From Lepiota brunneoincarnata (Eukaryota; Basidiomycota; Agaricomycetes; Agaricales; Agaricaceae), in contig JAEBUN010000068.1 in NCBI GenBank assembly GCA_023014365.1, positions 1-64,000 on the forward strand: a stretch of DNA of 64,000 nt. Direction: 5' to 3'. The translations under genes were made by a program, and so were the position numbers. The notes under the pieces are model-generated. The model saw nothing but the letters and a program-made list of their open reading frames with translations. It had not been told where the DNA came from and made no database searches. Positions 1 through 41,017 of this stretch are shown piece by piece; within the stretch, counting starts at the first letter, position 1, and every line of letters starts with the position of its first letter.

Positions 1-65
1 CTGGACATTACCAGCTTCCCCATACCCTACAACCCTTTCCACCACCTTCCCCTCCCTCCGAAAAT

Positions 66-1097
66 ATGTCTGAAACTATGGGAGACCTGCCAGCTAACCA
101 GCCACCATCAGGACCACCTGGAGGACCACCCAGAGGCCCACCAGGACTGCCTGGACCACCACATGATCCACCCTGACCACCATCACCACAACCGCAGCAC
201 AATGGCTATAAAGAACTGTTGTTCAAAAAACCAACACCGTTCGACGGCAACTGCAAGAATTTCCAGGAATTCATTAACTCTGTAACACTCTACCTTTATG
301 GTAACACCGACATCTATAACACCGATGACAAGAAAATCGTATTCTTCTTATCCTTGCTTAAAACCAGCGAAGCCAGCAACTGGAAGAACCAGTACTTTCA
401 GTCGAAGCAAATTTGGGGAGAGTTCACCCCCAGAACATATGACGAACTCATTGAAGAGTTCACCAAAGCATTCTCGCCCGTCGATGTCCCATCCCAAGCA
501 TTCCACGACCTTAACACCCTCTGCCAAGGATCCCGTAATGTTGAAGATGCCATCGCAGAGTTCAAGACTCTCATCCACCATTCAGGACTCCACGAAGATC
601 GTGCCCTCATAGAGAAGTTCCAAAACATCATCAATCGGAACCTTGCTTACAAAATCCTCACCGATCTGAACCCACCCAATACCATAAATGAATGGTACCG
701 CCACGCTATCCAGATTGACCACAACTGGTGCACCACTTCTACAATCCTTGGACTGTATCCAGGATTCCATCCATGCCCTGCCCCCACCAATAACTACCGC
801 CATACGCAACAACCATATCACCAACAGCAACAACAATTGTCCTACACTAGACCAAACTGCCATTACCAATTCCACCCATCGCGTGATCCGAACGCCATGG
901 AGATTGACAATACGTACCTTAATGAAGGTCCCAAATATTACCCTTCTTTTAATATCCCTGGTGATCTGCACCCCGATCAAGAAGAAGCTGAAGAAGACCA
1001 ACCAGATCATTTCCCCCACAATGACAACATCAATATCAACGCCATCTTCACGCCTGAAGAAAAACATGCCTACAAGAAAGGCTTATGTTTCCGCTGA
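66..1097 (+). pseudogene. gag: gypsy-1 Gag remnant
   Basis: The frame opens at ATG 66 with a proline/glycine-rich, collagen-like N-terminus (repeated GPPG-type steps), meets an in-frame TGA at 174-176 and stays open from about 219 to 1097. The middle (about 219-760) reads as a retrotransposon Gag capsid-like domain. A Gln-rich stretch follows. The C-terminus approaches a CCHC zinc knuckle (CFR at about 1086-1094, later H and C), but the TGA at 1095-1097 stands where the second cysteine is expected. Gag would form the particle and bind RNA. This copy cannot make a full protein. Confidence 0.8.
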
Positions 1098-1249
1098 TTC
1101 AAACCCAGTCACATCTCCTGCATTTGCCCCAATGTTGCCCAACTGCAACTGAAGACCAATAAAGCAACCAACATACGAAACGCCTCCCTTAAAATCCATT
1201 CTATCATTGAATCTATTCCCAAAACCGAAGCTGTTGAAGTCTACAAGAC

Positions 1250-3607
1250 TTGGTCCAAAGACCCGACTATGCAACCGTTCACAAATTTTTGATTCGGAGG
1301 TTCTGTTCAACACCAGCACCTTCCAGTTCCCCTCTCTCTTGTAATGTTGTAACTCTCGCATCTACTTCAAACAATAAATCCATATATCTTCCTTTAAAGG
1401 TGCAGAGCCTGAGAGAACAAAAAGACGTCCCGCTTATTGCCCTCCTTGACTCTGGAGCTCAAGGAAACTTCATATCAGACAACTTCGTCACCGAACATCA
1501 TTTATGGAAGCAAGAACTTCCCTGAGCAATTAACATACGTAATTTCGATGGATTGAACAATCTAAACAGAATGATTACCCATTATTCTACCTTCCACACA
1601 ATAATTGATGGTCAATTGACTCCCATCACCGCCTATGTCGCAGCAACAGGATCAAAACCAATGGTCCTTGGTTTCCCATGGCTTAACAAAGTCAACCCAA
1701 AAATCGATTGGAAATGCCATACATTCCAATGGAGAAAAGAGAAGAAGTGCAACCACCACCCTGAGTACTTAACGTACAACAACCGTCTGATCGATATTGC
1801 TACTCTCACAATGGACTGATCAAATGCATTCAACCCCGAAGGAAAGTTTTCCTACACCCCACATGAACTGATCTATGAACCTCTCCTCAATGAGGACTAC
1901 AAAGAGTTCTCTCTAGAGTCTGAGATGTGTCAGATCATCAGTACGCCCGCTGAACTCGCTCATGTTGAGCTTGAGATCAACTGAACCAGTCAAGCTACAG
2001 AACTTGCAATTAAACACGGAGACAAAAAGGTCGACGACCCCGCTGTTAAAGTCCCCCACCAATTCCACCAATGGTTGAGTCGTTTCAGCAAGAAGGCTGC
2101 TGAATGATTCCCTCCCGACAATCTTACAACCACGCTATTGAATTAAAGCCCAAATTCAAACCCATCACGATGACAGCTTACAAGCTTTCCCCAAACCAAG
2201 ATAACTCTTTGAAAGAGTTTATTTCCGAAAACCTCCGTAAAGGTTACATCCATCCATCGAAATCCCCGATGGCATCCCCATTCTTCTTCGTCGACAAAAA
2301 GGGTGGTTCACTCTGCCCCTGTCAGGATTACCGCTATGTCAAATAAACATATGGTCAAGAACGCATACCAAATCCCGATGGTTACTGAGATTATGGATAA
2401 GCTCAAAGGAGCCTGTATATTTTCCAAACTTGATGTCCATGCCGGATACAACAACATTTGCATCAAGAAAGGAGATGAATGGAAAGGTGCATTCAACACC
2501 CCACTTGGACTATTCAAACTGACCATCATGTTCTTCAGAATGTGCAACTCCCCCACAACTTTCCAGGCATTTATGGATGATATCTTAGCATCCCTGATCC
2601 ATAAAGGAGGAATCATCATTTACATGGACAACATACTCATATTTGCTTGTGACCAGGAAGAACACGACTGCATTATGGAAGAAGTTCTCAAGTGTTTGGC
2701 CCTGAACAACATCTATCTCAAAACCAAGAAATGCAAATTCTACTGCAACCGTATGGAATACCTTGGCATGATCATCACACCCAATAAAATTGAAATAGAC
2801 CCTGTCAAACTAGCCGGAATCACCCAATGGCCCATACCGAAATGTACCAAAGACATCCAAAAATTTATAGGATTCTGCAACTTCTACCGGATATTTATCC
2901 ACAGCTATTCCGCTATTGCCCGACCCCTTAATGCCCTTATGTTGACCAAACGACTATTCAAGTGGACTGATGAATGCTGTGACTCATTCGATGCTTTGAA
3001 ACTTCAGTTCTCAAAGCAACCCATGCTTACAATGCCTGATCAATTGAAACCATTCGAAATCAAATACGACGCTTTGAAATATGCTACCGGAGCCATACTT
3101 TATCAAACCAACATTAATAATCAATGCCACCCCATGGCTTTCCTATTGAAAACCCTTATGCCCGCCAAACAAAATTACGATATCCACAACCACAAGTTAC
3201 TTGCCATTATCCATGCCCTTGGTGAATGGTGTCATTATCTGGAAGGAGGACCCTTCCCCATGAAAGTTTGTACTGATCACCAAAATCTTACTTATTGGAA
3301 GAAACCGCAGGATATAAACCGGCGCCAGGCCTGCTGGCATCAATTCCTCTCCCGCTTTAATCTCCAGATCGAGCATGTACCTGGTACAAAAATACCCACC
3401 GCCAACACTCTCTCCCAATGTCCCGACCATATCCCCAACAAAGACAAAGACAACAAATCCATAACGGTATTACCCGAGACTATATTTGTCAACACCATCG
3501 ACCAAGAAACCCAAGACAATATACTTTGTCATCATAATTATGACCTGCACACTACCGAACAGATCACCACCCTCATGACTGCCCCATACGTTCCTATGGA
3601 TTCCTGA
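1250..3607 (+). pseudogene. pol: gypsy-1 Pol remnant: protease, reverse transcriptase, RNase H
   Basis: An aspartic protease motif (LLDSGAQGNFIS) lies near 1442-1475. The frame is broken by TGA at 1523-1525, 1817-1819 and 1982-1984, with a shift of frame near 2300-2346. RT runs from about 2180 to 2900 and includes SKLDVHAGYN and the tether FIGFCNFYR. The catalytic loop at 2621-2632 reads YMDN instead of YxDD, so the second metal-binding aspartate is lost. RNase H follows to about 3430. Despite the mutations, 2303-3607 is still open for 434 codons. It is clearly Ty3/gypsy by domain order and inactive by sequence. Confidence 0.85.
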
Positions 3608-3638
3608 TATTCTGTAACGCAAACCCCGAAAGGTTTAA

Positions 3639-5288
3639 TTGTTACTTATGATGGTAGGACCATTCCACCAGAAGACCTCAAACTCTGCCGATGTATCATA
3701 TGGAAATATCATAATTCCCCCACCGCAGGACACCCTGGTATCGATGCAACCCTTCACACATTGGAGCATGATTTTTACTGGCCTGGTATGGCCAGTTTCA
3801 CATGTGATTATGTCAAAGGATGCACCGACTGTCAACAGTTTAAAATTAATCAACACCCTGCCAAGCCTGCCTTTACCCCTATCCCTGCACCCAAATTGAA
3901 CTGCCCGTTCACTCAAATCATGATGGATCTCATCACCGACCTCCCTCCCTCTGCAGGTTTTGACTTGATTCTGTCCATTGTGGACCATGGACTCTCAAAG
4001 GGGGTAATTCTCACCCCTACCAACAAAGCAGCGACTGCTGATGACATCACCAATATCATTCTAAATAAAGTCTACCCACGCTACAGCCTATCTGAATGTA
4101 TCATATCCAACCACGATCCACATTTTACTGCACATTTGTTCCAGAAACTTTTGGAATGACTCAAAATAACCCCTGCAATGACCACAGCCTATCACCCCAA
4201 AGCAGATGGAGCAACCAAACATTCTCACCAGGAAACCCAAGCATATCTCTCCATTTTCTGTTCACATCATCCCGAAAACTGGTCACAGGCCCTCCCTCTT
4301 CTTGAATTTGCATACAATAGCCAACTGCATGCCTTACAAAAACAAACACTGTTTGAAATCATTATGGGAATACAACCGAAAGCACTTCCCACCATTCTCC
4401 TTGAAACCGAATCTCCCACTGTCAATAACTGCATGGAACTAATTGATTTATACTGTCAAAATGCTAAAACCACACATGAAACCGCCATGAAACACATGGA
4501 AAACTGACGCCAATCAAAGTTTACCCCGTTCCATGAAAATCAAATGGTTTGGCTCGACGCCCGGAACTTAAATACCCCATATGTCACGCACAAAATGGCT
4601 CCCAAATGCCTCGGACCATTCCATATCCTCAACGTTTTATCCCCTGTTTCATACTGACTCGAACTCCCCAAACGCTGGAAAATCCACCCTGTATTCCACG
4701 CCCAACTCCTCATGCCATATACTGAAACTGAAACGTACAGACCCAACTACATCCAACCTCCACCCCTACCATGACAGACCACTTCCCCCAGTCCCATTCC
4801 ACCCATCGCTGAAACACCAACCGCCGTCCCCATTCCCCCGCTTGTTGCTACTGTTAGCGACTATATTAACAAAGTTGACAGTGCCTCTACCCTCATCTTT
4901 TCGCTTCTTATCGCACCAACGCCAGCAGTATCAACAGAAGTACGTGATGGCTTCTTCCAACTCCGCAAAAACCTCCTCTGCCTCCGTGGCCTCAAACAAA
5001 GTGTCAAAAGAGTCAAGGAAGCAAATCAAAACACATTTAACCGCCTGTGGGCCGACCCCACCTTCCGCTGAATCTTCACCGAGCATTGCAGCTCCACAAC
5101 CGGTATATGGATTGCACCTGCAATCCCTAGTCCGATTCAACCTATGCCAGCCAACAGACTGGCCTGACGAGTCCCTGTTCACTCAACCCACTGATGAATT
5201 CGACCTGAACAACCTCCAAGCCTTACTACCCTGCCTATTATCGTACCCCCTGCCTCTGCACTACCACCCCAAACTCGACAACAAATAG
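3639..5288 (+). pseudogene. pol: gypsy-1 integrase remnant and proline-rich tail
   Basis: The HHCC zinc domain (HPGID...GCTDCQQF) lies at about 3730-3845. The DDE core has D in MMDLITDLP (near 3922), D in SNHDPHF (near 4110) and E in the HQETQAYL segment (near 4230). A TGA at 4157-4159 and a TGA at 4505-4507 interrupt the frame. The C-terminal part includes LGPFHILN and HPVFHAQLL, the usual GPY/F-type module, near 4610-4710. After that comes a Pro-rich segment with several stops to 5348. The reading continues, after undoing the inversion, into the zinc-knuckle tail at 32711-33047. Confidence 0.8.
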
Positions 5289-5348
5289 TGGATGAATTCA
5301 CCCAATGAATGGAAGCCCGTCAACAGCAGGAAACCCACCCCTTACCCC

Positions 5349-6010
5349 TGTTAGAGCCGGTGCGGGTCAGGACCGAAGCGGAGGGTCGGGGTGGTATCCT
5401 TGGTATAAGGTAACCGGGGGACAGGACGAAGTCAGTACGTAGACTTCGGGACCGAGGCGGAGTACGTCGGGCGGGGGTTGGACTTGCGGCCTCAGCTTAT
5501 GTGCTGTGCCCTCCTACTGTCCTAGTCCGTATTTCAGGAAGTCGGAGCCGAAGCGGAGTGAGGCAGAAGAGAGGAGAGGATATGGAACAGGGAGCTGGTC
5601 CGCTGCTCGATTCGATTATCAGACTGAGGAGTACAAGCCAAGTGCCTACGGTATATATACTACTAGCTTGACGAATGATGACTCATACTGACTACGTGCG
5701 GAGCGAAGCGGAGACCCATATGGTTACAAGCGGATTACGAATAATTTCGAATGGAATGGAGACCGGTATGGGTATGGAGACTGGTAACGTATTCTGATTA
5801 CGGACGGAGAATGGAGAACTGGACAATGGGAGCACCGAGGGTCAGGTGGTCGTGGCACGTGTAGAGGTAAGTCGCGTAATCGGGGCAAAGGGTTGCGGTC
5901 GGAGCCAGTCGGGGCCGAGTCGGAGGGCATAGGGTTGTCGTGTGGAGCACACGTGGAGTCGAGAAGCCGAAGCCTAATGGTTAAGCTCTAAGTTTGGTGT
6001 GGATATGACA
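5349..6010 (-). repeat. 3' LTR of chromovirus copy a (variant I)
   Basis: 662 bp. On the plus strand it starts TGTTAGAGCC and ends GGATATGACA, so it is bounded by TG...CA. Diagnostic bases (GGCAAAGG, GGTGGTCGTGG, GAATGATGAC on the plus strand) agree with the left LTR of copy b (33048-33709) and not with the other LTR of this same element. This shows that the two LTRs come from different insertions. Confidence 0.95.
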
Positions 6011-6023
6011 GTGCCCCCCCTTT
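6011..6023 (-). other. Polypurine tract of copy a
   Basis: On the minus strand the sequence AAAGGGGGGGCAC directly precedes the 3' LTR (TGTCATATCC). It is the expected primer for plus-strand DNA synthesis. The same tract precedes the right LTR of copy b at about 40250-40262. Confidence 0.8.
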
Positions 6024-6085
6024 AGGGCCGAGCCTCGAGGCCCAAGGCGGTCTAGACCGGGGCCCACCGGAAAATTCCATGAGGG

Positions 6086-6093
6086 TATAAAAA
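6086..6093 (+). promoter_or_regulatory. TATA box for the antisense gene of copy a
   Basis: TATAAAAA lies 76 bp inside the 3' LTR and about 59 bp upstream of the antisense gene's ATG at 6145, facing away from the LTR. This spacing suits a Pol II promoter with a short 5' UTR. Copy b keeps it (about 40181-40188, minus strand). Transcription from it is inferred. Confidence 0.5.
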
Positions 6094-6144
6094 AAAGGTG
6101 AACTGATTCGAATTTGAGAGGACACAACTTGACCTCCTACCCCC

Positions 6145-7296
6145 ATGAGCAGACAACCATCCCGTCAACCGACCGCTACGGAGCGCAAGGCGCGATTACT
6201 GAGAGAGAAGGCGGAGCGAGAGGAACGAGAGCGGCTCGAAATCGAGAGGCTAGAAGAAGAGGAACGGCGAGAGGAGGAGGAGCGGCGGCTGGCAATAGAG
6301 CGCCAAGAGGAGGAGCGACGGCAGCTCATAGAGCGCCAAGAGGAGGAGCGACGGCAGCTCATAGAGCGCCAAGAGGAGGAGCGACGGCAGCTCATAGAGC
6401 TGCGCCAGCGACAAGCGGAAGAGCGCGCGAAGGAGCGATATGCGGAGGAGATCAGGAGGCAGCAAGAGGAAACCGCCGAGGCAGAGCGTCGGGCGATTCG
6501 GGCCCGACTCGTTGCGACGACCACAGGGGCCTCGTCGAGCCGTCTGTCGGAAGACCCGATGCAAGTAGATACGGAGGAGTCGGATTCCGAATATACGGAT
6601 AGGGATGAGGCGAGGGACGAGGAGGAAGAGGGGGAGGAGGACTCTGGGGATTCAGGGGGTAAGGGTAAGGGGAAGGCAAAGGCGAGGGCGGCCCCGCGAC
6701 GGGGCCATGCGCACGTATTCGGGGGCGAGAATCCCTGCTGGAGGTGCCAGCGAGACGGGGTCCCATGTGAGGTGGCCGGCGGGTAAGTCATTTTGGAGGA
6801 TTTCCGGACTACATACTGATAGTTTCTTAGTAACACCAGGAGTTGCCGTCGGTGCAGCAAAATGAAAAAACGGTGCGGGGGTCAAGAGGAGACGGAGCCG
6901 AGCGGGGCCGGTGGTTTGTCGGGCCAGCAATTCGAAGGTGAGTAAGGAATCCTGTATTATGATGGATGCCAATTGATGGACCTTGTAGAGTTGAAACGGC
7001 TCATCGAAGAAAGGCACCAGGAGACCGTCAAGAAAATCTACATCCTGGAGGTGCGAATTGAGCGGTCCATCGCTCGGTTGGGGGAAAAGGTCGACAAGAT
7101 GGGGTCGCTTGCTGGCCGCTACGAGCAACTATGGCGTTGGGAGGCTCAGGTGGACGGAAATTGGTCGAGTGGAAATTTTTCGGAGACGGAGGGTTCGGAG
7201 GGGAGTGTCGGGCCCGCTTCGGAGGAGGAGGTGCGGGATTTGATGGAAGAAGTGAATGGGTCGCCCGGGCTCTCTGGAGACGACACCGATAGGTAG
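6145..7296 (+). CDS. Antisense accessory gene of the chromovirus: charged coiled-coil, Zn2Cys6-like protein (2 introns)
   Basis: Three exons are predicted: 6145-6782, 6840-6937 and 6989-7296. Introns of 57 nt (GTAAGT...CAG) and 51 nt (GTGAGT...TAG) join in frame to about 347 aa. Residues 14-125 are an almost continuous E/R/K/Q helix including three 11-residue repeats (ERQEEERRQLI type). An acidic Ser/Glu/Asp stretch follows. Six cysteines at 198, 201, 208, 215, 218 and 225 have spacing 3-7-7-3-7, the same as in Gal4, with basic residues in the second half (SKMKKR). The intron splits the cluster between Cys3 and Cys4. Exon 3 adds a second possible coiled coil and an acidic tail. The gene converges on pol, with 70 bp between the stops. 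A DNA-binding or regulatory role is inference from the cysteine pattern alone. Both element copies carry the gene. Confidence 0.7.
6301..6399 (+). repeat. 33-bp tandem repeat, 3 units, in the antisense gene
   Basis: Units at 6301-6333, 6334-6366 and 6367-6399 begin CGCCAAGAGGAGGAGCGACG and are identical. Each encodes 11 residues of the charged helix. Copy b has one unit, and its exon 1 is exactly 66 bp shorter, so the array changes length in frame. Confidence 0.9.
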
Positions 7297-7366
7297 TTGT
7301 ACGGGGTTGTTTTTTTTGGTTTGTTTAATACATGGTTGTTTCTTGGTGCGATGTGTGGTCAGTAAC

Positions 7367-10300
7367 TCAAAGTGAGTGAAGAGGACCAGGCTTTGCAGGG
7401 TAAGAGGAATGAAAAGCCTCTACGAGATCTATAGCATGTTCAAGCTCGGTGGCTGGCAACCACGAGGACTCTTCTTCAGTGTCTTCGTAACCTAACCAGA
7501 TGACTTTATAGAGGAGCTTGCACGCGCGGCGCCGATCGATCTTAGAGTCGACGATGCGGGCAATCTCGTATTCTGGTTCACCGTCAATGGAAACCGGCGC
7601 GGGCGGCGGATCCGATCGGGCAGGTATGGTGTTAGGTGTGGCTGGTTCGAGCATGGAAACATGGAAGACTGGGTGTACTCCACGCATGGAGTCGGGAAGT
7701 CGGAGTGTAAGGGAGTGAGTACCTGCTTGTGCAATGATCTCATAAGGCCCAAGGTACTTTTCGGAGAGTTTTTTGGAGGGACGGGTGGTGCGGAAGAATT
7801 GGGCTTTCACAAATACCTTTTGTCCAACCTTGAAGTCCGGGGCGGGGAGTCGGTGGGCGTCGGCGGAGGTCTGATAACGTTGCTGGGCTAGCGCTATTTC
7901 GGACTTCAGGGTGGTATGTAGGTCGTCGAGATCAACAGCAAAATGGCGGGCCCGGGCGGAGGCAAGATCGCGTTCAGGATGAACTGTGATGTTCGGATGG
8001 TATCCTTTATTAGCGAAGAATGGGGAGATACCGGTGGTGGCACTAGGAGCGTTGTTGTAAGCAAACTCAGCTAGGGGTAGTAATTCGGACCAATTGTCCT
8101 GTTGGTAGTTACAATAGACCCGAAGGTATTGTTCGAGGGTCTGGTTGGTGCGTTCCGTTTGTCCGTCGCCTTCTGGATGGTAGCCCGAGGTGAAATGTAG
8201 CTTCATGTCAAGGGCTTGTCCCAATGAGCGGAAGAAGTGGGAGACGAATTCGGAGCCGCGGTCGGAGGTAACATGTTCGGGTACGCCGTGCTTGGAGAAG
8301 ACGTGGAGGACGAATAGGCGGGCGAGGTCGGAGGAGGTGATGGTATCATAAGTCGGGATGAAGAGGGATTGCTTGGTGAGTCTGTCAACGATTACCAGGA
8401 TGGCATCATAGCCGGAGGAGGCGGGAAGTTTTTCAATGAAGTCCATGGAGATTGAATTCCAAGGGCGTTCGGGGATGGGGAGTTGCTTAAGGAGACCGTA
8501 GGGGCGATGGCGCTGGGGTTTAGACCTCATACAGGTGACGCAAGACTTACAGAAATCCTTGACGAAGGTGCGGACGCTAGGCCAGGTGTATTCGCACCGG
8601 ATGAGTTCCAGCGTTTTATTCTGACCGAAGTGGCCGGCTAGGACGTGATCATGCTTGTACTGGAGGACCCAAAGTCGGAGATTGTCGGTGTCAGGGACGT
8701 AGATTCTGTCATCTAAGAGGAGGAAACCTTTATCATTAACTGACCAACGGCCTTCTGGGCTGGCAAGATGGGCGGAAGCGGTCGGATCCGCTGGTAGGGC
8801 GGCGAGAATATCGCGGTGTAGCTGATCGAGGTCCATGACTACAGCTGCACGAAGGGAAGGGGCGTAAAGAGTGGTGGCACGGACGGAGGCCACGAGCTGT
8901 TCGTGAGTGAACACAGGCCGGAAGTTGTGCGGGTTGACTGATGCATAGTCGCTATTCCCCCCTTTAGGGTAGACGTCCCATTGTCTAGTTAGGGCGTCAG
9001 GCTTGGTGCCGAGGTGGCCGGGTCGGAAACGGATGACGAGGTGGAATTGGGATAGGAACTCGGACCAACGAGCTTGGCAGCGAGTCAGGATCTTGGTGGT
9101 GCAGAAGTATTCGAGGTTCTTGTGGTCAGTGACCACATCAATAGCAAGGGGGGCACCTTCGAGATAGTGCCGCCAGATGCGAAAGGCTTCGAATATCGCC
9201 AGGAGTTCCTTGTCGTGAGTGTCATAGTTGAGTTCGGCCGTGTTAAAGGTGCGGGAATGGAATGCAACGGGATGGACCTCCCCATTGTCGGTGACGATAG
9301 AGAGGATTGCCGCAAGGGCGTAGTCGGAGGCATCGGTCTCGACAATGATCTGAGCGTCGGGGACCCAAGGAGTGAGGACGGGGGCGGAGATAAATGCTTC
9401 CTTCAGGGAGTTAAAGGCCTCGCGACAATCATCAGTAAAATTCCACTTCACGTCTTTGCGGGTGAGGCGAGTGAGCGGAACGACGATGTCGGAGTATCCG
9501 TGAATGAAGCGACGGTAGAAATTGGCGAAGCCTAAGAAGGACTGGATGTCCTTGACTTTCTTAGGCTCAGGCCACTCCTGGATGGTCTTGACCTTAGATT
9601 GGTCCATTCGGAGGCCGTCGGGGGAGAGAATGTAGCCGAGATATTCCACTGTGTCAGAGTGGAACTGGCATTTGTCAGGGCGGGCGTATAGACCGTGTTG
9701 GCGGAGCCGCTTGAGGACCTCCTTGACTTGGTCACGATGGATACTATGGTTGTCGGAGTATATCAGAATGTCGTCAAGGTAGATAGTAACGCAGACGTCG
9801 AGCATGTCCTTGAATATATCGTTCATGAACCGCTGGAAGGTGGCGGGGGCATTGGTGAGGCCGAAAGGCATAACCATCCATTCGAAGGAGCCGTAGCGGG
9901 TCCGAAAGGCGGTCTTCCATTCGTCGCCGTCAGCAACGCGGACAAGATGGTAGGCGTGGCGGAGGTCGATCTTGGTATATACGCGAGCTTTGTGAGGGGA
10001 GTCTAAGAGGTCGGAGATGAGCGGAAGGGGATAGCGGTCCTTCTTGGTAATATGGTTGAGACCTCTAAAATCAACGCATAAGCGGAGGGAGCCGTCCTTT
10101 TTCTTGACGAAGAGGACCGGGGCTCCATGAGGGGAAGTGGAGGGGCGGATGAAACCAATAGATAAATGTTCGTCAATAAAATCACGTAGAGCTCCAAGCT
10201 CCGATTGTGACAGGGAGTAAATGGTACCGACCGGAGGCTGACCGCCATCCTCTAGGTTAATCTGGAGGTCGTAAGGGCGGTGTGGAGCAAGTGTGTCAGC

Positions 10301-11032
10301 ACGCGATTTACTGAAAACGTCAGTGAACTCGTGGTATTCCTCGGGGATGGACGAGAGGTCAGGCGGTTCCTCGGAGACAGAAGAGGACGCGGCCGATGCG
10401 GAGGCGGCGGAAAGATTGATTCGGAATTGTTGGGAGCCAGGGAGCTTGGCAGCGCGGATAAAGGCAGGAGCGTTTATCAAGGAGATGTGCGGTTTCGCAA
10501 GGGGGACAGATTGGGACGAGGTCCCGGACAGGGGTGGTGAACCTAGGTCAGGAGAGTCAGGGGCGGCCATAGGCGGAGCCGATGCGGGTGCGACGCAGGT
10601 AGAGACGGAAGCAGGATTCTCGAGTAGGGATGGCCGGAAAGTAATACTGCCCAAAGCCCAGTCAATCAACGGATTGTAGCGGGTGAGCCAGTTGTGTCCT
10701 AAGACCACAGAACAGGAAGAGTCGAGCTGGGTGACATAAGTGTCCAAAATGATAGATTCACCGGAGGGGAAGGATACAGGCAGTTGCGCAAGCTCCGTAA
10801 TGTAGGCGTTTGAGGTCCCATCAAATAACCGAAGTTCAATAGCCGGGATGGACGAGGTTGGAATACTATGAGAACGAACGAAAGAAGAGTCCACAAAACA
10901 GTGAGTAGAACCACTATCAACAAGAGCTTTGAAAGGAGAAAAAGAAGAAGAAAAGTCAGAACTAACTACATTGTCCGTTGTAGAAAGCGGGTCCGAAGCG
11001 GAGAGTACAGGAGCGGAAACAGAGGGTAACAA
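7367..11032 (-). CDS. pol: Chromovirus Pol, copy a: protease-RT-RNase H-integrase-chromodomain
   Basis: 1221 codons are open from a conventional TTG-initiated reading; the frame actually continues upstream to overlap gag. Protease DSG starts at residue 39. RT lies at about 240-480 with YLDD at 418. RNase H is at about 540-660, and the integrase HHCC near 780-830. The DDE core includes DFIEKLP, SDRGSEF and the E of GQTERTNQ. A GPY/F segment (YLGPYEI) precedes a chromodomain at about 1152-1210 (YEIARIVDSK...WLGYEDTEEESSWLP). The chromodomain places it among chromoviruses, which are thought to target marked chromatin. Two RT/RNase H positions differ from copy b by Arg to Cys or Gln changes at CpG. 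All catalytic residues I checked are present. Confidence 0.95.
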   Translation of the reverse strand: MLPSVSAPVLSASDPLSTTDNVVSSDFSSSFSPFKALVDSGSTHCFVDSSFVRSHSIPTSSIPAIELRLFDGTSNAYITELAQLPVSFPSGESIILDTYVTQLDSSCSVVLGHNWLTRYNPLIDWALGSITFRPSLLENPASVSTCVAPASAPPMAAPDSPDLGSPPLSGTSSQSVPLAKPHISLINAPAFIRAAKLPGSQQFRINLSAASASAASSSVSEEPPDLSSIPEEYHEFTDVFSKSRADTLAPHRPYDLQINLEDGGQPPVGTIYSLSQSELGALRDFIDEHLSIGFIRPSTSPHGAPVLFVKKKDGSLRLCVDFRGLNHITKKDRYPLPLISDLLDSPHKARVYTKIDLRHAYHLVRVADGDEWKTAFRTRYGSFEWMVMPFGLTNAPATFQRFMNDIFKDMLDVCVTIYLDDILIYSDNHSIHRDQVKEVLKRLRQHGLYARPDKCQFHSDTVEYLGYILSPDGLRMDQSKVKTIQEWPEPKKVKDIQSFLGFANFYRRFIHGYSDIVVPLTRLTRKDVKWNFTDDCREAFNSLKEAFISAPVLTPWVPDAQIIVETDASDYALAAILSIVTDNGEVHPVAFHSRTFNTAELNYDTHDKELLAIFEAFRIWRHYLEGAPLAIDVVTDHKNLEYFCTTKILTRCQARWSEFLSQFHLVIRFRPGHLGTKPDALTRQWDVYPKGGNSDYASVNPHNFRPVFTHEQLVASVRATTLYAPSLRAAVVMDLDQLHRDILAALPADPTASAHLASPEGRWSVNDKGFLLLDDRIYVPDTDNLRLWVLQYKHDHVLAGHFGQNKTLELIRCEYTWPSVRTFVKDFCKSCVTCMRSKPQRHRPYGLLKQLPIPERPWNSISMDFIEKLPASSGYDAILVIVDRLTKQSLFIPTYDTITSSDLARLFVLHVFSKHGVPEHVTSDRGSEFVSHFFRSLGQALDMKLHFTSGYHPEGDGQTERTNQTLEQYLRVYCNYQQDNWSELLPLAEFAYNNAPSATTGISPFFANKGYHPNITVHPERDLASARARHFAVDLDDLHTTLKSEIALAQQRYQTSADAHRLPAPDFKVGQKVFVKAQFFRTTRPSKKLSEKYLGPYEIIAQAGTHSLTLRLPDSMRGVHPVFHVSMLEPATPNTIPARSDPPPAPVSIDGEPEYEIARIVDSKIDRRRACKLLYKVIWLGYEDTEEESSWLPATELEHAIDLVEAFHSSYPAKPGPLHSL

Positions 11033-11169
11033 AGTAACTAAAGGAGAAGTTAATGTAATATGAAGAGAGTTTGGATCGGAAAGAGCGGACGCATTGAGAC
11101 GGAAACTCTCTGGAGCACAGCAGAGTTCAATGCGATCCTCAGTCTGTGCAGAGGCCTGAGGACTGCCGA

Positions 11170-12576
11170 CTATTTTTCCGAGCTCGGGAGAGCCGGCGCG
11201 TCTGTCTCGGAAATCTGAGCCTGTCGGCCTTTAGCCTTGGCGTCAGGGAATTTCTTCTTGTCGCAGTTGGCAGCCCTGTGATTGGGATCTGCGCAGACAA
11301 GGCAGAGGTTATTGTCAAAACGTCGTTGACGTTCCTCGGGGGTTAATTTACCGTCCTTACCAAGTTTACTAGTAAGGTCGGACTTTGGCGGGGCCGATTT
11401 CTGACCGGCGGACGGGTTGGGCGGATTGCCCTTGAAGATGTTATTACTGGGGGTGCTGCCTTTGTTGTTACTGTTGGCAGACTTGGCGGCAGGTTGATGG
11501 TTTGTCGCGGTGGAAGGGGATGGGTTGCCTCCCGGTTTCCTAGAGGCGGTCGGGTCCGAAGCGGCTTTGGTGCGGGCCTTCTCGCGTTGGCGTTCCCAGT
11601 AGCGAGCATCGATCTTCATCGCTGCTGCTCGCATTTCGATGAAGGTGTCGGACTTGCCGTCGGGCCGATTGGACAGAATGTCCTGGATGCGGTCGGGGAG
11701 GCCTTTGTAGTAGCGGTGACAGAATACCTCATCACCCCAGCGGAGTTGGCCGGCCAGACGGAGAAAGTCGACGTTGTAGACGGCGATCTTTTCGTCATAG
11801 CGCATTCGGAGGGAGTCAAGCTGCTCAGCAGCTTCTCCGGTCGGATCCGCGGGACCGAAATTGGTCTGCAGTTCCAGGGTGAACTGATCCCAGTCCTCGA
11901 TCCAATCGTGCATTATTCCGTGGTTGTCGGCCTCGTCGAGGCCGATTTCGAAGTGTTGCTGGGCCACGCCGGTAAGGTACGTCAACGCGAAGTTGACCTT
12001 GGTGGCGGGGATAGCGAACTGGGCCGGGTTAGTACGGAAGTAGAGTCGACATTGGAAGAGGAAAGGTTTGAGTTTGGTGGGGTCGGAACCTGTAAAGATG
12101 TCAGGTTCGCGAGCCTTGGTACGGGGGGTTCGGGGAGGCTGTGGGGGTTGAGAGTTCCCACGGCCGTCCATTTGATCGGCTATTCGTTGGAAAACTCGGA
12201 GCAGGAGTTGGTCATGGTCATTTTGGGTGTTGCCAGGCGGAATGTTGTTATTGTTGTCGTTGTTGTCTGACGGTTCGTCGTCGTCCGGGGGTCCGTCCCC
12301 ATTGTCAGGGTAGTCGTCGGGATCACCAGGGTCGCTGGGATCGGGATTTGGGTCGGGGCCACCGTCGGGGCCGTCGGGAGTCTGGAATAGTGAAGGTTGA
12401 ATATCTTCACTGAACCGGTCTGGAGTTGAGGGCACGATGGATTGTTGGCGAGGGGGAGAAACCCTCGGGGGGTCGGGTTGTAATTCCTCGGAAGGAGATT
12501 GTCGAATGATGCGTTTGCTACGGCGAGCGGCTGGAGTTACCCGAGTGCGGGGACGGGTGACTGTTCGAGAGACCAT
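11170..12576 (-). CDS. gag: Chromovirus Gag, copy a (intact)
   Basis: 468 aa. The N-terminal third is basic, then Pro/Asp/Asn-rich and probably disordered. The centre (about residues 150-330) is a retrotransposon Gag capsid-like domain (REPDIFTGSDPTKLKPFLFQC...). The C-terminus has one CCHC knuckle, CLVCADPNHRAANC, fitting CX2CX4HX4C. The start is the ATG about 50 nt downstream of the 5' LTR. Pol lies in the -1 frame and overlaps the gag end by about 60 nt, so Gag-Pol is probably made by -1 frameshifting. Copy b carries a nonsense mutation at codon 127, so copy a is the better template. Confidence 0.93.
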   Translation of the reverse strand: MVSRTVTRPRTRVTPAARRSKRIIRQSPSEELQPDPPRVSPPRQQSIVPSTPDRFSEDIQPSLFQTPDGPDGGPDPNPDPSDPGDPDDYPDNGDGPPDDDEPSDNNDNNNNIPPGNTQNDHDQLLLRVFQRIADQMDGRGNSQPPQPPRTPRTKAREPDIFTGSDPTKLKPFLFQCRLYFRTNPAQFAIPATKVNFALTYLTGVAQQHFEIGLDEADNHGIMHDWIEDWDQFTLELQTNFGPADPTGEAAEQLDSLRMRYDEKIAVYNVDFLRLAGQLRWGDEVFCHRYYKGLPDRIQDILSNRPDGKSDTFIEMRAAAMKIDARYWERQREKARTKAASDPTASRKPGGNPSPSTATNHQPAAKSANSNNKGSTPSNNIFKGNPPNPSAGQKSAPPKSDLTSKLGKDGKLTPEERQRRFDNNLCLVCADPNHRAANCDKKKFPDAKAKGRQAQISETDAPALPSSEK

Positions 12577-12616
12577 GGTTAGAAAGGATTAGAGTGTAAT
12601 GGACAGGAGGAGTTTG

Positions 12617-12627
12617 AGTCTGATAAT
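12617..12627 (-). other. Self-primer binding site, copy a
   Basis: On the minus strand ATTATCAGACT begins 2 nt after the 5' LTR. It is perfectly complementary to AGTCTGATAAT inside that LTR (12905 down to 12895), which lies about 34 nt downstream of the TATA box and so near the predicted RNA 5' end. No tRNA-like TGG primer site is seen. This is the Tf1/sushi self-priming arrangement. Confidence 0.75.
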
Positions 12628-12629
12628 AC

Positions 12630-13290
12630 TGTTAGAGCCGGTGCGGGTCGGAACCGAAGCGGAGGGTCGGGGTGGTATCCTTGGTATAAGGTAACCGGGG
12701 GACGGGACGACGTCAGTACGTAGACGGCGGGACCAAGGCGGAGTACTTCGGGCGGAGAGTGGACTTGCGGCCTCAGCTTATGTGCTGTGCCCTCCTACTG
12801 TCCGAGTCTGTATTTCAGGAAGTCGGAGCCGAAGCGGAGCGAGGCAGAGAGAGAGGAGGATAGGGAACAGGGGACTGGTCCGCTGCTCGATTCGATTATC
12901 AGACTGAGGAGTATAAGCCAAGTGCCTACGGTATATATACTACTAGCTCGACGAATTATGACTCGTACTGACTACGTGCGGAGCGAAGCGGAGACCCATA
13001 TGGTTACAAGCGGATTACGAATAATTTCGAATGGAATGGAGACCAGTACGGGTATGGAGACTGGTAACGTATTCTGATTACGGACGGAGAATGGAGAACT
13101 GGACAATGGGAGCACCGAGGGTCAGGTGATCGTGGCACGTGTAGAGGTAGGTCGCGTGATCGGGGCGAAGGGTTGCGGTCGGAGCCAGTCGGGGCCGAGT
13201 CGGAGGGCATAGGGTTGTCGTGTGGAGCACACGTGGAGTCGAGAAGCCGAAGCCTAATGGTTAAGCTCTAGGTTTGGTGTGGATATGACA
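12630..13290 (-). repeat. 5' LTR of chromovirus copy a (variant II)
   Basis: 661 bp, TG...CA. Variant-specific bases (GGCGAAGG, GGTGATCGTGG, GAATTATGAC on the plus strand) match the right LTR of copy b (40263-40923). The 5 bp outside, AATGG (13291-13295), are the reverse complement of the CCATT that follows copy b. Confidence 0.95.
12932..12939 (-). promoter_or_regulatory. LTR TATA box, copy a
   Basis: TATATATA lies 34 nt upstream (on the minus strand) of the sequence AGTCTGATAAT that pairs with the primer site. It is the likely promoter of the genomic RNA. Confidence 0.6.
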
Positions 13291-13916
13291 AATGGCCCGG
13301 ATGACGCATGCTATTCTTAATCACATGCTGATAGGGAGCTATCGGAGGCGCTTCTTCCCACAGGAAGATTATTCCTGTTGCTGTGGGTTTCAGGAGGAAA
13401 CTTGTGAGCACATGTTTCGGAGTTGCCTTAGGCACTCCATGGTGGGGGTCCCAGCTACGGTCGAGGCTCTCATTGCTTTCCTTGAGGCATCCCCGATAGC
13501 ATTCGTGTTTGCTGAGAGGGCTGGGCCCCCCCTGGGGGGTATCGGCTAGTAGCTCTGCCTGGCGCCTGGTTGGGGCCAGGCCAGGGCATTGGTTATTCCC
13601 CCGCCATCCTCGGGCAGTGTGTAGGGATTTATGTGGGAATTGACCCCTAACCCCCATTAGGGGGGGGACCTCGCTCTGGTCTGGTTCCTGTGCCGTTTGC
13701 TGGGCGGTAGCCATCTTCCTGCCTCCGTTCACTTGGGGCGGCTTTGTCCTGGACATGGGGAAACGCATGCCTGCGTCCGCAGTCACGCGTTGTATGTACA
13801 GATACCCTGTAGTGTACAGCTCGGTCATTTGTACTGTAGTACATTGCTGCATGCGGCCTCCCTACACGGCCCGTGTAATAAATTGGAGATTTTTAAAAAA
13901 AAAAAAAAAAAAAAAA
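13291..13916 (+). mobile_element. LINE-B copy B1, 3' segment with poly(A)
   Basis: This is the end of ORF2 (RNase H C-terminus and terminal Cys-rich motif, CCGFQEETCEHMFRSC) and the 3' UTR, ending AATAAATTGGAGAT plus A-tract (13895-13916). Its 5' remainder is at 40924-41017 on the minus strand. The two halves meet at AATGG/CCATT, the target duplication of the chromovirus that split them. The whole B1 is flanked by a 12-bp duplication, GAGGTCCAGGCC (13917-13928 and, in reverse, 41018-41029), so it was a 5'-truncated insertion into another LINE-B (B0). Confidence 0.85.
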
Positions 13917-32622: not shown

Positions 32623-33047
32623 TTACCCCCTTTTAATCTTCAAACTCTGTTTCAAAGCCAACAAGCAGCAGGGTACGGGCGTTGGGTATGGATCGTGGAA
32701 GTAGTCGTTTCTAGTCATAGCCATAACCATTGTAGGCATAGTCGTAGTCGTTGTATTGGCCATCGCCAATGATATCGTACATTTGTCCAAAGGTATTGGG
32801 ATAGCGTTGTGCCATCCTTTCAAGTGCAGCGTTTCGTTGATTCTGGTGATAAATGGGGCAAGTTTGCATGTAATGTCTGGGCACGGAGCAGTTGCAGTGG
32901 TGGCAGGTGTATTGGGGGCAACTGTGTGCCCAGTGGCCAATTTGATGGCACTCGAAACAGCGATTTCTTCCAACATCGTACAAATGGGTTGTCGTGGCTT
33001 GGGGTGTGATGGTGGGGGTAGTACAATGTTGAGGGGGTCTTTGGGGT
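32623..33047 (-). pseudogene. pol: gypsy-1 Pol C-terminal tail with zinc knuckles
   Basis: Read on the minus strand from 33047, this continues the gypsy-1 frame that breaks at 5348. It has a Pro/Thr-rich stretch, then CFECHQIGHWAHSC, CHHCNC and RHYMQTC, a compact CCHC-type array, and a Tyr/Asp/Gly-rich end at 32711 followed by the polypurine tract. A knuckle array after the integrase is unusual beside the normal Gag knuckle. A role in nucleic-acid binding is inferred. Confidence 0.7.
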
Positions 33048-33709
33048 TGTCATATCCACACCAAACCTAGAGCTTAACCATTAGGCTTCGGCTTCTCGAC
33101 TCCACGTGTGCTCCACACGACAACCCTATGCCCTCCGACTCGGCCCCGACTGGCTCCGACCGCAACCCTTTGCCCCGATCACGCGACCTACCTCTACACG
33201 TGCCACGACCACCTGACCCTCGGTGCTCCCATTGTCCAGTTCTCCATTCTCCGTCCGTAATCAGAATACGTTACCAGTCTCCATACCCGTACCGGTCTCC
33301 ATTCCATTCGAAATTATTCGTAATCCGCTTGTAACCATATGGGTCTCCGCTTCGCTCCGCACGTAGTCAGTACGAGTCATCATTCGTCGAGCTAGTAGTA
33401 TATATACTGTAGGCACTTGGCTTGTACTCCTCAGTCTGATAATCGAATCGAGCAGCGGACCAGCTCCCTGTTCCATATCCTCTCCTCTCTTCTGCCTCGC
33501 TCCGCTTCGGCTCCGACTTCCTGAAATACGGACTAGGACAGTAGGAGGGCACAGCACATAAGCTGAGGCCGCAAGTCCAACCCCCGCCCGACGTACTCCG
33601 CCTCGGTCCCGAAGTCTACGTACTGACTTCGCCCTGTCCCCCGGTTACCTTATACCAAGGATACCACCCCGACCCTCCGCTTCGGTCCCGACCCGCACCG
33701 GCTCTAACA
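33048..33709 (+). repeat. 5' LTR of chromovirus copy b (variant I)
   Basis: 662 bp, TGTCATATCC...CTCTAACA. At the diagnostic bases it agrees with the LTR at 5349-6010, its original partner before the inversion. Confidence 0.95.
33399..33443 (+). promoter_or_regulatory. LTR promoter and predicted RNA start, copy b
   Basis: TATATATA (33399-33406) precedes AGTCTGATAAT (33433-33443) by 34 nt. The latter is the 11-mer complementary to the primer site after the LTR, so transcription probably starts at or just before it. Confidence 0.65.
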
Positions 33710-33711
33710 GT

Positions 33712-33722
33712 ATTATCAGACT
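33712..33722 (+). other. Self-primer binding site, copy b
   Basis: ATTATCAGACT begins 3 nt after the LTR end (33709) and is a perfect 11-nt complement of 33433-33443. This matches the layout of copy a and of Tf1-type self-priming elements. Confidence 0.75.
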
Positions 33723-33762
33723 CAAACTCCTCCTGTCCATTACACTCTAATCCTTTCTAACC

Positions 33763-35169
33763 ATGGTCTCTCGAACAGTCACCCGTCCCCGCACTCGGGT
33801 AACTCCAGCCGCTCGCCGTAGCAAACGCATCATTCGACAATCTCCTTCCGAGGAATTACAACCCGACCCCCCGAGGGTTTCTCCCCCTCGCCAACAATCC
33901 ATCGTGCCCTCAACTCCAGACCGGTTCAGTGAAGATATTCAACCTTCACTATTCCAGACTCCCGACGGCCCCGACGGTGGCCCCGACCCAAATCCCGATC
34001 CCAGCGACCCTGGTGATCCCGACGACTACCCTGACAATGGGGACGGACCCCCGGACGACGACGAACCGTCAGACAACAACGACAACAATAACAACATTCC
34101 GCCTGGCAACACCCAAAATGACCATGACCAACTCCTGCTCTGAGTTTTCCAACGAATAGCCGATCAAATGGACGGCCGTGGGAACTCTCAACCCCCACAG
34201 CCTCCCCGAACCCCCCGTACCAAGGCTCGCGAACCTGACATCTTTACAGGTTCCGACCCCACCAAACTCAAACCTTTCCTCTTCCAATGTCGACTCTACT
34301 TCCGTACTAACCCGGCCCAGTTCGCTATCCCCGCCACCAAGGTCAACTTCGCGTTGACGTACCTTACCAGCGTGGCCCAGCAACACTTCGAAATCGGCCT
34401 CGACGAGGCCGACAACCACGGAATAATGCACGATTGGATCGAGGACTGGGATCAGTTCACCCTGGAACTGCAGACCAATTTCGGTCCCGCGGATCCGACC
34501 GGAGAAGCTGCTGAGCAGCTTGACTCCCTCCGAATGCGCTATGACGAAAAGATCGCCGTCTACAACGTCGACTTTCTCCGTCTGGCCGGCCAACTCCGCT
34601 GGGGTGATGAGGTATTCTGTCACCGCTACTACAAAGGCCTCCCCGACCGCATCCAGGACATTCTGTCCAATCGGCCCGACGGCAAGTCCGACACCTTCAT
34701 CGAAATGCGAGCAGCAGCGATGAAGATCGATGCTCGCTACTGGGAACGCCAACGCGAGAAGGCCCGCACCAAAGCCGCTTCGGACCCGACCGCCTCTAGG
34801 AAACCGGGAGGCAACCCATCCCCTTCCACCGCGACAAACCATCAACCTGCCGCCAAGTCTGCCAACAGTAACAACAAAGGCAGCACCCCCAGTAATAACA
34901 TCTTCAAGGGCAATCCGCCCAACCCGTCCGCCGGTCAGAAATCGGCCCCGCCAAAGTCCGACCTTACTAGTAAACTTGGTAAGGACGGTAAATTAACCTC
35001 CGAGGAACGTCAACGACGTTTTGACAATAACCTCTGCCTTGTCTGCGCAGATCCCAATCACAGGGCTGCCAACTGCGACAAGAAGAAATTCCCTGACGCC
35101 AAGGCTAAAGGCCGACAGGCTCAGATTTCCGAGACAGACGCGCCGGCTCTCCCGAGCTCGGAAAAATAG
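33763..35169 (+). pseudogene. gag: Chromovirus Gag, copy b (one nonsense codon)
   Basis: It is collinear with the 468-aa Gag of copy a but has TGA at 34141-34143 (codon 127), where copy a has CGA. The rest is open to TAG 35167-35169, with the capsid-like domain and CCHC knuckle intact. A single CpG transition explains the loss. Confidence 0.9.
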
Positions 35170-38972: not shown

Positions 38973-39041
38973 GTTACTGACCACACATCACACCAAGAAA
39001 CAACCATGTATTAAACAAACCCAAAAAACAACCCCATACAA

Positions 39042-40127
39042 CTACCTATCGGTGTCGTCTCCAGAGAGCCCGGGCGACCCATTCACTTCTTCCATCAAAT
39101 CCTGCACCTCCTCCTCCGAAGCGGGCCCGACACTCCCCTCCGAACCCTCCGTCTCCGAAAAATTTCCACTCGACCAATTTCCGTCCACCTGAGCCTCCCA
39201 ACACCGTAGTTGCTCGTAGCGGCCAGCAAGCGACCCCATCTTGTCGACCTTTTCCCCCAACCGAGCGATGGACCGCTCAATTCGCACCTCCAGGATGTAG
39301 ATTTTCTTGACGGTCTCCTGGTGCCTTTCTTCGATGAGCCGTTTCAACTCTACAAGGTCCATCAATTGGCATCCATCATAATACAGGATTCCTTACTCAC
39401 CTTCGAATTGCTGGCCCGACAAACCACCGGCCCCGCTCGGCTCCGTCTCCTCTTGACCCCCGCACCGTTTTTTCATTTTGCTGCACCAACGGCAACTCCT
39501 GGTGTTACTAAGAAACTATCAGTATGTAGTCCGGAAATCCTCCAAAATGACTTACCCGCCGGCCACCTCACATGGGACCCCGTCTCGCTGGCACCTCCAG
39601 CAGGGATTCTCGCCCCCGAATACGTGCGCATTGCCCCATCGCGGGGCCACCCTCGCCTTTGCCTTCCCCTTACCCTTACCCCCTGAATCCCCAGAGTCCT
39701 CCTCCCCCTCTTCCTCCTCGTCCCTCGCCTCATCCCTATCCGTATATTCGGAATCCGACTCCTCCGTATCTACTTGCATCGGGTCTTCCGACAGACGGCT
39801 CGATGAGGCCCCTGTGGTCGTCGCAACGAGTCGGGCCCGAATCGCCCGACGCTCTGCCTCGGCGGTTTCCTCTTGCTGCCTCCTGATCTCCTCCGCATAT
39901 CGCTCCTTCGCGCGCTCTTCCGCTTGTCGCTGGCGCAGCTCTATGAGCCGCCGTTGCTCCTCCTCTTGGCGCTCTATTGCCAGCCGCCGCTCCTCCTCCT
40001 CTCGCCGTTCCTCTTCTTCTAGCCTCTCAATTTCGAGCCGCTCTCGTTCCTCTCACTCCGCCTTCTCTCTCAGTAATCGCACCTTGCGCTCCGTAGCGGT
40101 CGGTTGACGGGATGGTTGTCTGCTCAT
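39042..40127 (-). pseudogene. Antisense Zn2Cys6-like gene, copy b (nonsense at codon 25)
   Basis: Exons at 40127-39556, 39498-39401 and 39349-39042 have the same introns (57 and 51 nt) and the same splice sites as copy a. TGA at 40055-40053 replaces CGA (Arg 25). The helix has one 33-bp unit instead of three. The six cysteines and their spacing are kept; one basic residue (CRRC) is changed to CRWC. The introns are preserved unspliced, as expected for a gene antisense to the genomic RNA. Confidence 0.7.
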
Positions 40128-40262
40128 GGGGGTAGGAGGTCAAGTTGTGTCCTCTCAAATTCAAATCAGTTCACCTTTTTTTTTATACCCTCGTGGAATT
40201 TTCCGGTGGGCCCCGGTCTAGACCGCCTTGGGCCTCGAGGCTCGGCCCTAAAGGGGGGGCAC

Positions 40263-40923
40263 TGTCATATCCACACCAAACCTAGAGCTTAACCATTAGG
40301 CTTCGGCTTCTCAACTCCACGTGTGCTCCACACGACAACCCTATGCCCTCCGACTTGGCCCCGACTGGCTCCGACCGCAACCCTTCGCCCCGATCACGCG
40401 ACCTACCTCTACACGTGCCACGATCACCTGACCCTCGGTGCTCCCATTGTCCAGTTCTCCATTCTCCGTCCGTAATCAGAATACGTTACCAGTCTCCATA
40501 CCCATACCGGTCTCCATTCCATTCGAAATTATTCGTAATCCGCTTGTAACCATATGGGTCTCCGCTTCGCTCCACATGTAGTCAGTACGAGTCATAATTC
40601 GTCGAGCTAGTAGTATATATACCGTAGGCACTTGGCTTATACTCCTCAGTCTGATAATCGAATCGAGCAGCGGACCAGTCCCCTGTTCCCTATCCTCCTC
40701 TCTCTCTGCCTCGCTCCGCTTCGGCTCCGACTTCCTGAAATACGGACTTGGACAGTAGGAGGGCACAGCACATAAGCTGAGGCCGCAAGTCCACTCTCCG
40801 CCCGAAGTACTCCGCCTCGGTCCTGCTGTCTACATACTGACGTCGTCCCGTCCCCCGGTTACCTTATACCAAGGATACCACCCCGACCCTCTGCTTCGGT
40901 TCCAACCCGCACCGGCTCTAACA
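40263..40923 (+). repeat. 3' LTR of chromovirus copy b (variant II)
   Basis: 661 bp, preceded by the polypurine tract AAAGGGGGGGCAC. At the diagnostic bases it matches 12630-13290. It is followed by CCATT. Confidence 0.95.
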
Positions 40924-41017
40924 CCATTACTGACACCGAGTGAGCGTGTGGGATCCAGGCCCCACTGTGGAGGTATATGGGCTGCAGGGGACAGTTGTCA
41001 TCCCTGGCAAGTGGGAG
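40924..41017 (-). mobile_element. LINE-B copy B1, 5' segment
   Basis: Minus-strand LINE-B from just before the RNase H C-terminus (ARDDNCPLQPIYLHSGAWIPHAHSVSVM) up to the chromovirus insertion. It joins 13291-13916 after undoing the inversion. Its 5' end abuts the 12-bp duplication at 41018-41029. Confidence 0.8.

Follow-up and report, generated by a model that had tools for sequence, protein, structure and literature searches.

An antisense gene with predicted introns and a zinc-cluster-like motif, under purifying selection, between pol and the 3' LTR of a fungal chromovirus

The window analysed here, a 64,000-nucleotide stretch of Lepiota brunneoincarnata DNA, contains a chromodomain Ty3/Gypsy retrotransposon with an additional gene between pol and the 3' LTR, on the opposite strand. 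As far as sequence can tell, this antisense gene is real: its place, strand, conserved splice sites, TATA box, ATG, six cysteine codons and purifying selection can all be read from the DNA. We assign a probability of about 50% to the reading that it encodes a zinc-cluster-like, coiled-coil protein that binds CGG-type sites in the LTR and in the antisense promoter and tunes transcription of the element. Antisense genes at this place are already known; the one here is a new version, in which the protein is zinc-cluster-like, introns are predicted and purifying selection has acted.

The element and its antisense gene

The retrotransposon, element A, lies at 5349..13290 and was delimited by self-alignment, its LTRs and its pol domains; it and its parts described here are on the minus strand. 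The 3' LTR (5349..6010; TGT...ACA, 662 bp) is 95.3% identical to the 5' LTR (12629..13290). The gag gene (11170..12576; ORF list and direct reading) encodes 468 aa with a CX2CX4HX4C knuckle, and pol (7367..11032) encodes 1221 aa with RVP_2, RVT_1, RNase H, integrase, SH3_Tf2-1 and Chromo domains according to Pfam. Reverse transcriptase, RNase H, integrase and the chromodomain at the C-terminus of pol all scored above the Pfam cut-off, and the LTRs, a polypurine tract and a 5-bp target duplication are present as in a chromovirus. The polypurine tract, identified by direct reading, adjoins the 3' LTR at 6011..6023; 12 of its 13 columns are invariant in all 44 copies scored in this study, and the remaining one is conserved in 43. 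A space of 1.3 kb separates the end of pol (stop at 7367) from the polypurine tract and 3' LTR. Downstream of the 5' LTR, at 12611-12628, there is no TGG start, and the primer-binding site looks unusual. A different Ty3/Gypsy element with many stops, whose pol is ~29% identical to that of element A, occupies 1-5340 beside it.

The antisense gene is located in the 1.3-kb space, on the plus strand. The initial annotation had given it a TATA box of its own; this is present at 6086..6094 and reads TATAAA in 40 of the 44 copies. Exon 1 (6145..6782) encodes a charged coil, an acidic stretch, a basic stretch and the first half of a cysteine cluster. Predicted intron 1 (6783..6830) has the form GTAAGT...CTGAT...TTTCTTAG, and exon 2 (6831..6937), free of stops, encodes the second, basic half of the cluster. 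Predicted intron 2 (6938..6988) is followed by exon 3 (6989..7296), whose frame is predicted by splicing and which encodes a predicted coiled coil, placed by its heptad register, an acidic tail and the TAG stop. The spliced frame runs from the ATG at 6145 to the TAG at 7294-7296 and specifies 350 aa, in which the only cysteines are the six of the cluster (Cys198/201/208/218/221/228; 6736..6876, divided by intron 1). A 33-bp in-frame repeat at 6274..6400 (plus strand; TRF) has 3.8 copies in the window copy; the alignment shows a smaller number of units in each of the 20 other intact copies. Of the 44 copies, 4 have AATAAA and 25 have AATACA no more than 70 nt from the stop codon.

Element B (~33048-40923) is an inverted second copy, 97.7% identical to element A over the aligned length. 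Both window copies had been described as carrying the antisense gene, and both do, but the gene of element B (39042..40127, minus strand) has a premature stop at codon 25, so that one of the two is intact. The 5-bp target duplications are swapped between A and B (ACCCC/GGGGT and AATGG/CCATT; 5344-5348, 13291-13295, 33043-33047, 40924-40928), and LTR identity is higher between the elements (98.5% and 97.9%) than within the element (95.3%). The exchanged duplications and the closer between-element LTRs are best explained by inversion through recombination between the inverted copies.

Spread of the gene and conservation of its splice sites

In a census of pol, 150 SH3_Tf2-1 hits were scored out of 1045 candidates in the genome. 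The antisense gene lies downstream of pol in 115 of the 150, on the opposite strand in 115/115, at a distance of ~0.9 kb in 112 and 0.5-0.8 kb in 3. Position, orientation and presence in most copies match those of the antisense ORFs described at this place in other elements. Gene matches numbered 290 as reported in the 55.6-Mb assembly, with 150 places listed. The scored set (n = 44) consisted of the two window copies, three loci retrieved by the genome search and 39 loci spanning the identity range of the 150 listed places; a 45th aligned copy, L048, which breaks off after exon 1, was left out. The assembly also gave 77 matches to DUF6533, a domain that marks agaricomycetes, and 35 to hydrophobin; 14 control genomes contained neither, and the host is therefore most likely an agaricomycete. 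Three contig pairs (C13/C29, C28/C78 and C49/C72) gave the same E-values at parallel positions, and such apparently duplicated contigs may have inflated the copy counts somewhat.

The claim of two canonical short introns was borne out by the alignment: GT-AG ends at both predicted introns, the ATG and the six Cys codons were found in 44/44 copies, and the TAG stop codon was kept in 42/44. Four of the six Cys codons switch between TGC and TGT, with no other change. Across the aligned copies, the conservation of splice ends, ATG and Cys codons is far above chance. Among 16 additional, mostly decayed copies, the four splice ends were kept in 12 and the six Cys codons in 10. Intron 1 measures 47-51 nt and intron 2 49-52 nt over the copies; all 44 copies have a CTRAY branch motif in intron 1, whereas just 18 have one in intron 2.

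After splicing, 21 of the 44 copies showed no premature stop or frameshift, and 23, window copy B included, were broken. When read unspliced, all 21 intact copies have a stop within intron 1; in the window copy this stop is in frame and, as the initial annotation had it, the cluster is assembled only with intron 1 removed. At least one intron has a length that is not a multiple of 3 in 18 copies, 7 of them intact, and where the spliced frame is open the frame is restored only by intron removal. Such a frame shift was rejected as evidence in the window copy, where the introns (48 and 51 nt) are both multiples of 3 and all exons thus share one genomic frame; splicing there is supported by the stop that intron 1 places in frame and by the changing intron lengths elsewhere. 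Comparison of the window copy with L025 or L044 gave 45-47% identity for intron bodies and 72-86% for exons. Over the ten pairs used for the frame control below, intron identity ranged from 42 to 100%, a wide range because some copies are recombinant. Compared with the window copy, L029, L030 and L023 are mosaic, their N- and C-terminal parts resembling different subfamilies; the switch points around the cluster exon suggest template switching.

Since the gene is antisense, its introns are reverse-complemented in the sense genomic RNA and should survive retrotransposition. Antisense placement would offer a retroelement a way to retain introns from one retrotransposition cycle to the next.

Selection on the coding frame

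We calculated dN/dS for 11 intact representatives, restricted to the 21 copies without a premature stop (55 pairs, which are not independent). The ratio was 0.12-0.36 in the 50 pairs with dS > 0.1; among the five closest pairs, it was 0.31 in one and 0.44-0.89 in four. Low ratios between distant copies and high ratios between close ones are the pattern expected of an element that is under selection during transposition and decays once inserted.

A frame control covered six frames, four exon stretches and ten pairs. In all three exons, the spliced plus frame alone was both free of stops and low in dN/dS, at 0.12-0.18 (0.14 and 0.17 in exon 1, 0.12 in exon 2 and 0.18 in exon 3). An artefact of an open mirror frame was rejected, as the best reverse frame gave 0.17-0.32 with 0.3-2.8 stops per pair. 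For the C-terminus of pol in the same copies, dN/dS was 0.02-0.09 in most sufficiently divergent comparisons and up to 0.29 for the short fragment L046; the constraint on the antisense gene is weaker than that on pol. These ratios support the prediction that the antisense gene is protein-coding and under purifying selection. The initial annotation had proposed neutral substitution and loss of the cysteines as grounds for abandoning its reading; a test of the copies for these two signs did not refute it.

The functional product might instead be the antisense RNA, acting through double-stranded RNA, silencing or transcriptional interference. The conserved promoter-like TATA would suit this possibility, and such roles are discussed for other elements in the accessible text of PMC7264820. 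Against it, selection at the protein level is frame-specific in all three exons, and variation at the cysteines is only synonymous in 44/44 copies; we consider a purely RNA-level product very unlikely. A recently captured host gene, riding within the element as an unselected passenger, would account for the near-neutral ratios of 0.44-0.89 in the four close pairs, the stops or frameshifts in 23/44 copies and the amplification of copies without the cluster described below. Constraint between subfamilies extends up to a dS of ~1.1, however, and the gene is at the same place for 115/150 pol hits. The passenger explanation is contradicted by the selection analysis and the frame control, and there is hardly any chance that it is correct.

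Cysteine spacing and the relation to zinc clusters

The position of the intron 1 acceptor determines the spacing of the six cysteines. The frame stays open with an AG at 6830, 6839 or 6842 as acceptor, and also with the donor/acceptor pair 6772/6822. The acceptor at 6830 has the best context, with TTTCTTAG directly after the CTGAT branch motif. The amino acids of the Asn-Thr-Arg codons between 6830 and 6839 are invariant in the 21 intact copies, and third positions vary (AAC/AAT, ACC/ACT), which fits coding after 6830. Intron 1 therefore probably ends at 6830 rather than at 6839, and the likely spacing is 3-7-10-3-7 (C-X2-C-X6-C-X9-C-X2-C-X6-C). The initial annotation was right about six cysteines, but the 3-7-7-3-7 spacing that it called identical to Gal4 needs the downstream AG at 6839, which is also present and less supported.

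The predicted protein has, in order, a charged coil, an acidic stretch, a basic stretch, the six-Cys cluster, a short linker, a predicted coiled coil and an acidic tail. In the best of the seven heptad registers, a/d hydropathy of the coiled coil was 1.31, compared with -1.53 elsewhere. Zn2Cys6 proteins have the pattern CX2CX6CX5-12CX2CX6-8C, and the 3-7-10-3-7 spacing falls within it. A basic cluster half with a subsequent coil is the layout of zinc-cluster transcription factors.

We searched the protein with the PF00172 (Zn_clus) profile, whose cut-off is 21 bits. The whole window protein scored 14.1 bits, pieces of 120-123 aa scored 17.8-18.4, and a 55-aa piece scored 21.3; among relatives, a 55-aa piece of L029 reached 21.4 bits and a 110-aa piece of L025 11.1. 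Only short fragments attain the cut-off, and the score depends on piece length. At E up to 1, 3/6 members of alignment A1 matched (member 1 at 15.3 bits). In every case the best stretch aligned the first Cys half to the latter half of the profile (positions 15-31 of 39 when this half was searched alone), and the second half alone (CRRCSKMKKRC) gave no PF00172 match. For the whole cluster, an additional weak stretch was reported, its position not given. The order with the basic half first, as in PF00172, was not found. CRRCSKMKKRC, which is basic, resembles the DNA-contacting first half of Gal4. A very weak in-order alignment with the Zn2Cys6 of Pho7 in a search of PDB by sequence (E 2.9-6.5) counts against a half swap. 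Our reading of the motif is a zinc cluster with swapped halves rather than an ordinary member of PF00172. Of the description as a Zn2Cys6-like gene, the likeness of the cluster was retained, but the whole protein falls below the cut-off and its halves appear in an unusual order. The antisense protein shares CX2CX6C-X9-CX2CX6C, a basic half and a subsequent coil with fungal Zn2Cys6 (Gal4-type) factors; unlike them, it has an apparently swapped half order, scores below the cut-off as a whole and is encoded by a retroelement.

All PDB matches by sequence were weak. No match was found to NCBIfam in 6 relatives, to TRP28 (PF04195) in 6 relatives at E up to 1, or to bZIP in Pfam at E up to 10 for the antisense protein. 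The spliced protein (region 105-350) had no homologue at E up to 0.01 among 2762 candidates, and alignment A1 had none at E up to 0.1 among 7997 scored candidates, in collections believed to be poor in fungal proteins, so that absence from other fungi is not implied. The viral contigs and genome contigs searched contained no relatives of the gene.

Under the proposed mechanism, the antisense gene would be transcribed from its own TATA and its two introns would be spliced out. Splicing, zinc binding and dimerisation are predictions: the six-cysteine cluster of the spliced product would bind zinc and the coiled coil would dimerise. We infer that the protein acts in the nucleus, where it would recognise a CGG-N6-CCG before the antisense TATA and repeated CCG-N3-CGG in the LTR. 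Once bound, it may feed back on the element by tuning sense or antisense transcription, with HBZ of HTLV-1 as the working analogy.

Candidate target sites

A candidate binding site is the inverted repeat CGG-N6-CCG (6048..6059, no strand assigned), which precedes the antisense TATA, on the side of the polypurine tract, and occurs in 32/44 copies. Its spacer differs between subfamilies, and the half-sites change only sporadically, by transitions and one deletion. The spacing is that bound by yeast Ppr1. Next to the repeat is a block whose conservation may serve plus-strand priming. Beside the polypurine tract, the segment 6024-6047, with GGGCC/GGCCC, is almost invariant in the 44 copies.

The 3' LTR of element A contains five CCG-N3-CGG sites, compared with 0.25 expected, a number reached in 0/300 shuffles; this enrichment should be read with care, since 39 motif classes were tried. 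Conservation was 0.884 for the CCG-N3-CGG columns and 0.887 for other CpG columns. A role as conserved binding sites was rejected on this basis, as the enrichment of the sites is not matched by conservation above that of CpG columns elsewhere, and they remain candidates only.

The candidate sites contain CpG, which would suit an anti-silencing or host-directed factor, that is, a protein that binds CpG/CGG sites of the element or host promoters and counters methylation-linked silencing or alters host transcription. In 17 copies of the window subfamily, CpG transitions account for 71% of 2968 pairwise differences, while only 27% of C/G bases are in CpG. This excess indicates ongoing mutation of the copies at CpG, which cytosine methylation would be expected to cause; CpG-type RIP would produce an identical pattern. 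The searches above found no homologue, and Pfam gave no anti-silencing match. An anti-silencing role is the strongest rival to self-regulation by the encoded protein, and we consider it unlikely.

Comparison with known antisense genes

The plant elements Grande (gene23), RIRE2 and Retand (TRP28) are described as carrying antisense ORFs in the interval from pol to the 3' LTR; according to the accessible text of PMC7264820 and PMC11963269, they are present in most copies, a regulatory or DNA-binding role has been suggested, and their function is unknown. The word "intron" is absent from the main text of both papers on these ORFs. The plant ORFs agree with the gene described here in position, orientation and presence in most copies. 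Retand belongs to a non-chromovirus lineage, whereas the element here is a chromovirus.

Boty of Botrytis cinerea reportedly has an antisense gene called brtn (attributed to Zhao, 2011). Boty/brtn, a fungal chromodomain element with an antisense gene, is likened to element A by description. In the text accessible to us, Boty is a fungal element with a chromodomain (PMC4227169) and an additional antisense gene (PMC7264820, PMC8365987). In the literature searched, mostly without subscription journals, no fungal LTR element was listed with an antisense gene that is of Zn2Cys6 type or bears introns.

HBZ, the antisense gene that HTLV-1 has at its 3' end, gives rise to a spliced transcript and a transcription-factor-type protein, as far as the accessible text of PMC10186651 describes it. 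The gene here resembles it in being antisense, at the 3' end, spliced (by prediction) and of transcription-factor type. HBZ is a bZIP protein with its promoter inside the 3' LTR, whereas here a zinc cluster is encoded and a promoter-like TATA lies just inside the LTR. For antisense genes in this position, whether in plants or in fungi, the question of function becomes testable here, because one genome combines many copies, a recognisable DNA-binding-type motif, strong and frame-specific selection and natural loss variants.

Copies and families without the cluster

Of the 35 pol hits without a gene call, 30 were inspected by tblastn. Part or all of the antisense gene was found at 14 loci, and the remaining 16 gave no tblastn match: nine from other chromovirus families and seven from the same family, one of which ends with its contig.

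Four copies (L049, L050, L051 and L053) share a common deletion that removed both introns and the whole cluster and left the promoter, the ATG and the C-terminal tail. They are mutually 98.5-99.2% identical, gaps aside. A residual 71-aa frame is present in three of them and is truncated by a later stop in the fourth. L052 lost the cluster through a different deletion. The pol frames of all five are 1181-1286 aa long. The four copies are an amplified sub-lineage that does without the cluster; with at least four near-identical copies lacking it, the cluster is not needed in cis. Its loss also counts against the self-regulation reading.

This bears on the possibility that the product is an accessory protein of the integration complex or genomic RNA, serving in nuclear import, tethering or as a chaperone, with the cluster and coils making protein or RNA contacts. 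The coil is highly charged, with acidic and basic stretches, and a role in transposition is a standing suggestion for plant antisense ORFs in the accessible text of PMC7264820. That an amplified lineage has lost the cluster speaks against this, because any accessory role would have to be dispensable or suppliable in trans. The basic cluster half with its coil, being a transcription-factor layout, is a further argument against an accessory protein, which we regard as quite improbable. Returning to self-regulation, a bolder version would have the retrotransposon encode its own half-swapped, CGG-recognising zinc-cluster transcription factor from an intron-protected antisense gene, with the cluster-less sisters exploiting it in trans; we put this forward tentatively and think it rather doubtful.

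At the nine loci of other chromovirus families (L063-L068, L079, L081 and L082), there was no gene match and no CX2CX6C antisense downstream of pol; the pol C-terminus of these families is 39-42% identical. L066 (G000:C5:394400-397800) has a 179-residue antisense frame ~1.3 kb after pol, rich in charged coil and with no CX2CX6C. The large antisense frames at L068, L079 and L082 appear by eye to be other retroelements.
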